This document shows, in pieces, positions 60,367 through 63,008 of a DNA stretch of 64,000 nt. Under the pieces are notes generated by a model. The model was given only the letters and a program-made list of their open reading frames with translations, was not told where the DNA came from and ran no database searches. A program made the translations under genes and the position numbers. The stretch covers positions 4,676,501-4,740,500 of the forward strand of contig NZ_CP157874.1 of assembly GCF_040214835.1 (NCBI RefSeq), in the 5' to 3' direction. Source of the stretch: Pseudomonas asiatica. GTDB taxonomy: Bacteria > Pseudomonadota > Gammaproteobacteria > Pseudomonadales > Pseudomonadaceae. The number at the start of each line of letters is the position of its first letter. The first letter of the stretch is position 1.

Positions 60367-61686
60367 ATGGATAATGCCACCTCCCTGCCAGCCGGGGCGG
60401 CCACCGCGCCTGCCACAGAAAAAACCACCGCCAGCCGCCTGAAGTCGATCTTCAGCGGGTCCATCGGCAACATGGTCGAATGGTACGACTGGTACGTCTA
60501 CGCCGCATTCTCGCTGTACTTCGCCAAGGCCTTCTTCCCAGCCGGCGATTCCACCGCACAATTGCTCAATACCGCCGCGATCTTCGCCGTGGGCTTCCTC
60601 ATGCGCCCGATCGGTGGCTGGCTGATGGGCCTGTACGCCGACCGCAAAGGCCGCAAGGCCGCATTGATGGCCTCGGTGCTGCTGATGTGTGCAGGCTCGC
60701 TGGTCATCGCCCTGACCCCGGGCTACGAAACCATCGGCGTCGCCGCGCCAATCCTGCTGGTCATCGCACGCCTGCTGCAGGGCTTGTCGGTGGGTGGTGA
60801 ATACGGCACCTCGGCCACCTACCTCAGCGAAATGGCCAGCAAGGACCGCCGTGGCTTCTTCTCCAGCTTCCAGTACGTGACCCTGATCTCCGGCCAGCTC
60901 ATCGCCCTGGCGGTACTGATCGTCCTGCAACAGACCCTGACCACCGAGCAGCTGTATGCCTGGGGCTGGCGCGTACCGTTCGTGATCGGTGCGCTGTGCG
61001 CCGTGGTGGCCCTGTACCTGCGTCGCGGCATGGAAGAAACCGCTTCCTTCACCAAGAAGGAAAAGGCCAAGGAAAGCCTGATGCGCACCCTGCTGCGCCA
61101 CCCCAAGGAGCTGATGACCGTGGTCGGCCTGACCATGGGCGGCACCCTGGCCTTCTACACCTACACCACCTACATGCAGAAGTACCTGGTCAACACCGTG
61201 GGCATGAGCATCAGCGACTCGACCACCATCTCGGCCGCCACGCTGTTCCTGTTCATGTGCCTGCAGCCGGTGATCGGTGGCCTGTCCGACAAGATCGGTC
61301 GACGCCCGATCCTGATCGCCTTCGGTGTACTCGGCACACTGTTCACCGTACCGATCCTCAGCACCCTGCACACCATCCAGACCTGGTGGGGCGCGTTCTT
61401 CCTGATCATGGCGGCGCTGATCATCGTCAGCGGCTACACCTCGATCAACGCCGTGGTCAAAGCCGAGCTGTTCCCCACCGAAATCCGCGCCCTGGGCGTG
61501 GGCCTGCCGTACGCCCTGACCGTGTCGATCTTCGGCGGCACCGCCGAGTACGTGGCCCTGTGGTTCAAGAGCGCCGGCATGGAGAGTGGCTTCTACTGGT
61601 ACGTCACCGCCTGCATCGCCTGCTCGCTGCTGGTTTACGCGACCATGAAGGACACCAAGCAGCACTCGCGGATTACCACTGAGTGA
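60367..61686 (+). CDS. kgtP: MFS dicarboxylate/2-oxoglutarate permease (KgtP-like)
   Basis: A 439-residue major facilitator protein of the metabolite:H+ symporter branch with 12 membrane segments. Signature regions are GNMVEWYDWYVYAAFSLYF, MGLYADRKGRKAALM and LLQGLSVGGEYGTSATYLSE. Close to KgtP and related dicarboxylate carriers. It follows dctBD and has a sigma-54 promoter, so it is very likely a DctD target for uptake of C4/C5-dicarboxylates. The exact substrate is inferred. Confidence 0.92.
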   Translation: MDNATSLPAGAATAPATEKTTASRLKSIFSGSIGNMVEWYDWYVYAAFSLYFAKAFFPAGDSTAQLLNTAAIFAVGFLMRPIGGWLMGLYADRKGRKAALMASVLLMCAGSLVIALTPGYETIGVAAPILLVIARLLQGLSVGGEYGTSATYLSEMASKDRRGFFSSFQYVTLISGQLIALAVLIVLQQTLTTEQLYAWGWRVPFVIGALCAVVALYLRRGMEETASFTKKEKAKESLMRTLLRHPKELMTVVGLTMGGTLAFYTYTTYMQKYLVNTVGMSISDSTTISAATLFLFMCLQPVIGGLSDKIGRRPILIAFGVLGTLFTVPILSTLHTIQTWWGAFFLIMAALIIVSGYTSINAVVKAELFPTEIRALGVGLPYALTVSIFGGTAEYVALWFKSAGMESGFYWYVTACIACSLLVYATMKDTKQHSRITTE

Positions 61687-61705
61687 TGCTGGCCTGGCAG
61701 TACTG

Positions 61706-61742
61706 AAAAGGGGCGCTCCAGTGCATGGGGCGCCCCTTTTTT
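61706..61742 (+). terminator. Intrinsic terminator after kgtP
   Basis: GGGGCGC (61710-61716) pairs with GCGCCCC (61730-61736) across a 13-nt loop, preceded by AAAA and followed by TTTTTT. Confidence 0.9.
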
Positions 61743-61760
61743 GTGATACGCGGCAGCCTG

Positions 61761-61862
61761 TGAGCCGATTGACGGCCTTATTCGGCTCACAGAATGAGCC
61801 GAATAGCGCTATTATTCGGCTCACAAGATGAGCCGAATAGCCGGCTTATTCGGCTCATGGGA
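61761..61862 (+). promoter_or_regulatory. Array of three 34-bp palindromic units before the fic gene
   Basis: Units start at 61761, 61795 and 61829 with an exact 34-bp period. Each is an inverted repeat: TGAGCCGAATA, 7 bp, TATTCGGCTCA, then a 5-bp linker. The first unit has a degenerate left arm (TGAGCCGATTG). The array ends 6 bp before the fic ATG. A -10-like TATTAT (61810-61815) lies inside it. The pattern strongly suggests an operator for cooperative repression. Confidence 0.85.
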
Positions 61863-61868
61863 CGGATC

Positions 61869-63008
61869 ATGAATAGCCCTTTATGGATCTGGCAGCAACC
61901 TGCCTGGCCACGCTTCACCTGGCAAAACGAAGCCATCGCCCCAATGCTACGCAATTGCATCGACATGCAAGGACGCCTGCTGGGCAAGATCGGCAGCGTC
62001 GATGCACTCAGCGAGTGCCAGAACATCCTCGATACGCTGCTGCAAAACATCGTCACCTCTTCGGCAATCGAAGGTGAGCAGTTGAACGTGGGTTCTGTCC
62101 GCTCCTCCCTCGCTCGCCGGCTGGGCATCGAGGAGCAAGGACCTACCAATGCCCGCAGTGAAGGGCTGGCGGAGCTGATGCTGGATGCAACGCAAGGGTA
62201 TGACCGACCGCTGACCCTGCAACGCCTGTACACCTGGCACCAGTGGCTGTTCCCACTGGCACAAGGCGCCTTGAGCAAAGCGATACTGGTCGGCCAGTTG
62301 CGTGATGAAATGCCCATGCAGGTGATCTCCGGCCGGCTCGACAAGCCTACCGTGCATTTCGAAGCACCACCGCGCGATGGCCTGGAAGCCCGACTCAACG
62401 AGTTTCTCGACTGGTTTGCCAACAGTCGCGATTCCACCAGCCTGGACCCACTGCTACGTGCCGGAATCGCCCACTTCTGGTTCGTCACCCTGCATCCGTT
62501 CGACGATGGCAATGGCCGTCTGACTCGGGCAATCACCGACCTGGCGCTGGCGCAAGGTGAGCGACAGGCCATTCGTTTCTATGCCATGTCTGCCAGCATC
62601 CTCGAAGACAGGGCCGGCTATTACCAAGTGCTGGAGAACAGCCAGAAAGGCGACCTGGATATCACCCGCTGGCTATCCTGGTTTCTTGCTACCCTGCTGC
62701 GCAGCCTGGAACAGGCCCTGGCCAATATCGACCGGATACTGGCCAAGGCCAGGTTCTGGCAAGCACATCGCTCAGATGGTTTGCTGCCCGAACAGGTAAA
62801 GGTGCTCAACAGGTTGCTCGATGGCGGCCCCCGAGGATTCGAGGAAGGCATCAACGCAGCGCAATACCAGGCGGTGGCGAAGGTATCAAAGGCCACTGCG
62901 ACCCGCCACCTGTCCGATCTGCTCGACAAGGCCTGCCTGGTTCGCCTGCCTGGCGGGGGCCGCAGTACCCGCTACCGCATCAACACTCAGGACATCTCCA
63001 ACGCCTGA
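61869..63008 (+). CDS. Fic-domain protein with N-terminal DUF4172-type region and C-terminal winged helix
   Basis: A 379-residue protein. The N-terminal part MNSPLWIWQQPAWPRF resembles DUF4172. The inhibitory motif is S64-x3-E68-G69 (SSAIEG), so this is a class II (self-inhibited) Fic enzyme. The catalytic motif HPFDDGNGRLTR at residues 209-220 is complete, so AMP transfer is expected. Residues about 325-375 look like a winged helix (SKATATRHLSDLLDKACLV). The start at 61869 is chosen; ATGs at 61794 and 61857 lie in the operator array. Autoregulation is inferred. Confidence 0.92.
   Translation: MNSPLWIWQQPAWPRFTWQNEAIAPMLRNCIDMQGRLLGKIGSVDALSECQNILDTLLQNIVTSSAIEGEQLNVGSVRSSLARRLGIEEQGPTNARSEGLAELMLDATQGYDRPLTLQRLYTWHQWLFPLAQGALSKAILVGQLRDEMPMQVISGRLDKPTVHFEAPPRDGLEARLNEFLDWFANSRDSTSLDPLLRAGIAHFWFVTLHPFDDGNGRLTRAITDLALAQGERQAIRFYAMSASILEDRAGYYQVLENSQKGDLDITRWLSWFLATLLRSLEQALANIDRILAKARFWQAHRSDGLLPEQVKVLNRLLDGGPRGFEEGINAAQYQAVAKVSKATATRHLSDLLDKACLVRLPGGGRSTRYRINTQDISNA

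Follow-up and report, generated by a model that had tools for sequence, protein, structure and literature searches.

The window (the whole stretch of 64,000 nucleotides of Pseudomonas asiatica DNA that was analysed) carries at 61869..63008, on the plus strand, a fic gene for a protein of 379 amino acids, in which a DUF4172 domain (residues 6-87), a Fic domain (residues 114-227) and a C-terminal winged helix follow one another. In Pfam both domains exceeded their cut-offs, DUF4172 with 102 bits against 25 and Fic with 51.3 bits against 24, and the closest solved chain was 8cil (E 1.3e-101, over residues 5-372). The two features of a DUF4172-type class II Fic protein were found, also on the plus strand: the active-site motif HPFx(D/E)GN(G/K)R is present as HPFDDGNGRLTR (62493..62528; motif search and structure-match alignment) and the N-terminal inhibitory helix motif of the TSAIEG type as TSSAIEGE (62055..62078; aligned to TSAIEG of CbFic2). 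The C-terminal winged helix that a preliminary description had assigned to the protein is predicted from homology to 8cil, which extends up to residue 372; it would occupy residues 306-379 (62784..63005, plus strand, limits approximate), where Pfam gave a match to PF22168 below its cut-off (residues 335-371). The residues of the putative recognition helix are SKATATR (340-346; 62886..62906, plus strand), and the third of them, Ala342, tracks base 3 of the DNA half-sites described below.

The fic gene lies between an upstream MFS gene and a downstream, convergent DUF347 gene. Located 3' of the MFS gene is a hairpin followed by a T run (61706..61740, plus strand; 15-bp arms, 93% complementary), probably a terminator; a terminator scan limited to loops of 3-8 did not list it. 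Because of this hairpin with its T run and the convergent DUF347 gene, fic is probably a single-gene unit. A type II toxin-antitoxin module was considered and rejected, as no separate antitoxin or partner gene adjoins fic.

Between the hairpin and fic are three palindromic units of 29 bp, starting at 61761, 61795 and 61829 with a period of exactly 34, and each unit is an inverted repeat whose 11-bp arms flank a 7-bp spacer, a 5-bp linker leading on to the next unit. The preliminary description had given this architecture, the three starts and the lack of drift in the period correctly. It had also called the 34-bp units exact, which they are not: units 1 and 2 have 26 of 34 bases in common, units 1 and 3 also 26 and units 2 and 3 have 27. 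Five of the six half-sites read exactly TGAGCCGAATA, the remaining one being the left half of the first unit, TGAGCCGATTG, with two mismatches to TGAGCCGAATA. The units are referred to below as the putative operators O1 (61761..61789, an imperfect palindrome with this degenerate left half-site, from the palindrome and half-site scans), O2 (61795..61823, exact 11-bp arms, holding a -10-like hexamer, from the palindrome and promoter scans) and O3 (61829..61857, exact 11-bp arms, from the palindrome scan and the loci of relatives). The palindrome pattern occurs at three places in the window (five strand matches), against 0.00 on average when the window was shuffled 100 times, and exact TGAGCCGAATA is present in five copies in the whole 5.85-Mb genome, every one of them within the array. 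The presence of the array is thus not due to chance.

Eleven bases separate the end of O3 from the fic start codon at 61869. The reading frame stays open 5' to an ATG at 61794 within the array, and to this extent the array could be read into protein from an upstream ATG, as had been proposed; however, the start at 61869 is the aligned start among 30 relatives, with M1 nearly invariant. Only one sigma-70-like site was found in a promoter scan of 61640-61930, CTCACA-18-TATTAT (61786..61815, plus strand; 9/12 consensus positions, mean of 0.2 in shuffles). This site spans the junction of O1 and O2, so that the left half-site of O2 falls in its spacer and its -10 within O2. We regard it as the putative fic promoter, a consensus match being by itself no evidence of function. 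The quality of the -10 gave no separation between promoter-proximal and distal units.

The occurrence of fic and of the operator core, TGAGCCGA-N13-TCGGCTCA, was determined in a sample of 249 Pseudomonas genomes, where a fic match was defined as E 1e-60 or better with fragments counted, and the same pattern reversed was used as control. A fic match was present in 117/249 genomes and the operator core in 173/249, as compared with 0/249 for the reversed control. When the two lists were compared by hand, 114 genomes had both, 3 had fic only (G087, where it is a fragment, G125 and G144), 59 had the operator only and 73 had neither, and the association was strong (Fisher's exact test, p = 3e-22, uncorrected for relatedness). 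At least one unit was found before fic in 29 of the 30 best loci of the genus and at least two units in 27/30, all spacings being 34; the exception (L028) has a single half-site. Similarly, in the best 80 of 334 named relatives, which overlap the genus sample and include records of Pseudomonas, Stutzerimonas, Halopseudomonas, Azoarcus and Rhodanobacter, there were two units upstream of fic in 71, three in 3, one in 5 and none in 1. Absence of the array from relatives with the same fic gene had been named as the check that would speak against a regulatory circuit, and at least one unit was present in 79 of these 80 loci, as in the 29 of the genus. The named relative without units is a metagenome-assembled genome (L318) that has a run of N at the array position, with a half-site visible at each end of the gap.

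The start distance of neighbouring units was 34 bp in 77/77 pairs among the best 80 named relatives, whereas the spacers varied, with 97 distinct spacers among 156 units. A third unit was found in 3/30 loci of the genus and in 3/80 of the best named loci, and in none of these was the Fic identity below 91%. The norm is consequently two units rather than three, and the 34-bp period is the constant. The preliminary description had noted the 34-bp spacing and considered it unusual for simple cooperativity; the spacing as such stands, but it is better described as a strict constant, which suggests a defined multi-dimer complex.

These counts also bear on whether the palindromes could be selfish elements of the REP kind that stand before fic by accident. 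They are short and intergenic, as such elements would be. The co-occurrence with fic is nevertheless strong, and the 249 genomes contain 0-4 forward copies of the operator core each. Since the exact half-site is also confined to the array in the P. asiatica genome, dispersed copies are not seen and we rejected a REP element as scarcely credible.

The palindromes might instead act as hairpins in RNA or DNA (a terminator, an attenuator or an mRNA structure) and not as sites for a protein. The array does fold as RNA far better than its shuffles (z = -8.4), and a terminator-like stem made up of a right arm, the linker and the next left arm was listed. However, in 100/156 units the two arms differ at position 9 of the half-site, one having A and the other T, with no sign of compensation (Fisher's exact test, p = 0.09, in the opposite direction), the letters of the half-site track the helix of the winged helix-turn-helix domain (see below), and in two-unit loci the mRNA would be without a complete hairpin if the promoter is placed as in the window. 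The array thus appears to be conserved as half-sites and not as a stem, and a function as a hairpin is highly improbable.

To extend the comparison beyond the genus, a class set (321 genomes, 54 with a fic match at 1e-50) and a phylum set (398 genomes, 81 with a fic match at 1e-30) were used, both of which include the P. asiatica genome itself, together with 18 loci fetched from the 429 plasmid records that carry relatives of the window Fic at 1e-30. An inverted repeat was scored if at least 9/11 bases of the arms matched around a 7-bp spacer, within 150 bases before to 25 bases after the inferred fic start. Such an 11-7-11 repeat was found before 56/66 fic loci outside the genus as compared with 1.9 expected from shuffles, and in an enlarged set before 104/128 loci, leaving 24/128 without a 9/11 repeat. 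Among the 66 loci other odd spacers also scored high (57 loci at 5, 51 at 9 and 32-47 further out) because they have one common centre of symmetry, whereas even spacers gave 2-9 loci with about 2 expected. This pattern means that the centre and the dyad are established by the test, and that the division into 11-7-11 was carried over from the window. The letters of the half-site vary outside the genus; TG-N4-GAWTA is common, with AGCC, CGGA/C/T, AGGC/AAGC, AGYT, GCGT, ATTT and others as the N4.

The variation in the half-site was compared with the recognition helix of the adjoining Fic protein. A half-site could be called in 109 of the 128 loci (19 dropped) by a rule that uses the dyad and the initial TG and leaves base 3 free. 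Helix residue 3 went with base 3 as follows: Asp with C in 53/54 loci, Ala with A in 41/45, Arg with G in 3/3 and Pro with A in 3/3, and E, I, M and T occurred as single cases. Asp-cytosine and Arg-guanine are textbook contacts. In the smaller set outside the genus (55 loci with a half-site call, 11/66 dropped) mutual information with base 3 was highest for helix residue 3 (1.23 of 1.43 bits), the runner-up being the preceding residue with 1.20 bits, and the two residues are linked by descent. Like helices also went with like half-sites in distant proteins: SKATATR is combined with TGAGCC not only in the Pseudomonas branch but also in L171, L197 and L246, despite a whole-protein identity of 36-39% in L171 and L197, and SRATAYR with TGARGC both in L075/L088 and in L180, which belong to far-apart branches. 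A counter-example is L172, where the helix is SKATATR and the best palindrome reads TGAGGT. A large caveat applies to this covariation, as the specificity switches are too few for significance after correction for the tree: on supported branches of a tree of the other domains there was 1 independent pair for Asp-C, which is below significance, and 5 for SKATATR-AGCC, of which 3.7 agreed in direction, 0 disagreed and 1.3 could not be assigned (p = 0.125 at best). With this reservation, Fic is the probable reader of the site, given that in distant taxa the half-site shifts together with the recognition helix of Fic. Some rare half-sites (TGGTRTGTAAA, TGTTATGAWTA and TGAGNTATAG) occur with unusual helices, in L195, L202, L175, L198 and L199, and these types could extend the relation between residue and base.

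Considering the conservation of the array before fic, the presence of the operator core in 114/117 fic genomes and the covariation with the helix, a self-regulating Fic circuit, which had been put forward as plausible from the array and the winged helix, is supported. Very probably the array serves as the fic operator, to which Fic itself binds with its winged helix-turn-helix domain in a negative autoregulation. Each 29-bp palindrome would take the two winged helix-turn-helix domains of one Fic dimer, and two units (three in the window) at a fixed period of 34 bp would place neighbouring dimers in one register over the promoter. With the -10 inside O2, bound Fic would block RNA polymerase, and the negative feedback would keep the level of Fic low. 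In addition, the enzyme may be kept dimeric while it is bound to the operator. As judged from the DNA and protein sequences, binding, repression, cooperation of neighbours at the 34-bp period and a response of the enzyme to DNA are predictions, the last of them made because DNA binding by the homologue CbFic2 promotes dimers and shifts the balance of AMPylation and deAMPylation.

CbFic2 (Coxiella burnetii, CBU_0822, 8cil by best match) has the same DUF4172-Fic-HTH architecture as the window Fic, and DNA was reported to induce its dimerisation and to alter AMPylation and deAMPylation (PMC10628234). Random DNA was used in that work, and the authors leave a specific site open (PMC10628234). For the DUF4172-Fic enzyme studied in print, a response to DNA is thus known from random DNA, and a family-wide operator with a relation between residue and base that can be read would be a specific DNA ligand with which to ask, in a harmless Pseudomonas, if the promoter of an AMPylating enzyme is also its allosteric regulator. 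The Fic enzyme SoFic (Shewanella, 3eqx/9tch) matches the window Fic at residues 179-315, which is the Fic core only; 3eqx is listed as a Fic-domain transcriptional regulator.

Self-repression by a Fic-HTH protein is already known. According to PMC9755527, CccR of Yersinia pseudotuberculosis consists of a Fic domain and a C-terminal HTH and represses its own promoter; the HTH binds an inverted repeat near the -35/-10 of this promoter, a dimer-interface mutant fails to repress, and the footprint is AGATAATCAT-N26-ATGATAATCT. Like CccR as described there, the window Fic appears to be a class II Fic enzyme with a C-terminal DNA-binding domain (by homology) and an inverted repeat over its own promoter (by consensus match). 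The layouts differ, however, since CccR has two 10-bp boxes 26 bp apart, and in the window 7 bp separate the 11-bp half-sites of palindromes that follow in tandem every 34 bp. Self-repressing toxin-antitoxin operons such as AbiE, with several inverted repeats, would be a further parallel in negative feedback; in AbiE, as far as described, the antitoxin binds DNA, whereas in the window one polypeptide would be the enzyme, the inhibitory motif and the DNA reader. Among the matches listed from the open-access literature no paper described an operator for genes of the DUF4172-Fic class, an absence that is no proof, and the half-site string occurs there in 6 papers with titles on unrelated subjects. 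What appears to be new here is the strongly conserved putative operator of a DUF4172-Fic-wHTH gene with a clear family-wide specificity relation.

The operator core was kept in 59 of the 132 Pseudomonas genomes without fic, and such orphan operators constitute a natural experiment on a regulatory site whose only known reader is lost. We examined 54 orphan loci. Of the 59 genomes 52 are represented, one of which counts twice (G035, G038, G060, G075, G155, G172 and G234 left out), and a second locus of the fic-bearing genome G046 was added. Thirty were located at xseB-ispA, 5 in the MFS gap where the window has its fic and 19 elsewhere, and intact fic also occurs at xseB-ispA and in the MFS gap. 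Remnants of fic beside the orphan operators were detected by tblastn in L042, L137 and L138. By eye, the fic start was recognised in L037 and in L049 (at 10353, beside a fic-bearing locus), the last codons in L038, L108, L112 and L117, both ends in L102 and an internal piece in L110. No fic remnant was noted in the remaining orphan loci as far as these were read. As judged from the remnants, fic has been lost more than once, by internal deletion in L102 and L138. Multiple copies were also seen in some neighbourhoods: G064 has two fic copies about 9 kb apart, L049 has operators about 2.3 and 6 kb past the fic end, and the neighbourhood of L051 contains several fic copies or extra operators.

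Among the 30 orphan loci at xseB-ispA, 19 have a triad of half-sites, oriented out-in-out at 0, 18 and 34, in which the fourth half-site and fic are missing; the call tolerates up to two mismatches. These triads lie between a yfaP-like gene and xseB-ispA (L044-L048, L101, L103, L104, L106, L107, L109, L115, L122, L123, L126, L130, L131, L134 and L136). At 17 yfaP loci from operator-less genomes, a triad with one core mismatch was found in 3 (L145-L147), a single half-site in L144 and, by eye, a fic end in L142, with nothing recognisable in the rest; L141 was left out because the stretch lies inside another gene. For the 22 triads the mean pairwise difference was 0.039, 0.008 and 0.008 in the three half-sites, as compared with 0.47 for the spacer, 0.27 for the linker and 0.56-0.73 for the flanks, aligned without gaps. 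The invariance is explained in part by how the set was selected, since 19 of the triads came from a search in which 16 bases of unit 1 were fixed, and half-site 3 had to be recognisable. In 7 non-independent pairs whose 3' flanks differ at half or fewer of 30 bases, the difference was 26% in the flank and 0.9% in the half-sites, and the pair L145/L146 gave no such contrast.

Because 59/132 genomes without fic keep the operator and one orphan form looks conserved, Fic may not be its only reader. It could even be that TGAGCCGAATA is the site of some other regulator, widely conserved in Pseudomonas, and that fic is only one target among others, which would account for the orphan operators and the near-invariance of the triad. 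The site nevertheless goes with fic in other phyla and varies with the helix of Fic itself, and the P. asiatica genome has no further exact half-site. A search for proteins with the winged helix-turn-helix only in 24 orphan genomes gave only weak matches (the best with E 0.004, and in G090 and G076 no match even at E 1), of which the single one that was read was ArsR-like by eye, and hence no convincing second reader of the triad. We consider another regulator as the main reader very unlikely.

The orphan loci also bear on the idea that the array is part of a mobile unit and serves as a recombination or landing site for the gain and loss of fic. Genomes with fic and genomes with the triad are intermingled on a gene tree of ispA, and the triad label needs 11 changes, at least 7 of which are forced by supported branches (shuffled mean 15.4). 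In the sisters L115 and L035, 58/60 bases upstream are common and the sequences part right after the third half-site; this comparison left out L122/L033, L135/L063, L114/L069, L133/L064 and L043/L066. In addition, fic is found at several chromosomal sites and on plasmids. On the other hand, there is no second array 3' of fic and no recombinase as immediate neighbour in the window, the spacers differ among units, and ordinary deletion is indicated by the pieces of fic left next to some of the orphan arrays. The phage collection gave no match to the window Fic at 1e-20, and a phage origin of fic was rejected on this basis. A role of the array as a landing site is very unlikely, and autorepression by Fic is the preferred reading.

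The triad is kept either because there is another reader, or because fic-bearing and fic-less alleles are exchanged at this spot, or because the losses are recent. A possibility that we put forward with considerable doubt is that the 45-bp triad is a working element, either read by a second protein or maintained because fic alleles keep returning there, in which case the operator would be the left anchor for re-acquisition and an immediate brake on the incoming Fic. If so, the operator would persist in the genome as a conserved partner after its enzyme has gone. Remains that resemble the triad and keep the third half-site exact were also present at other sites (L112, L124 and L129).
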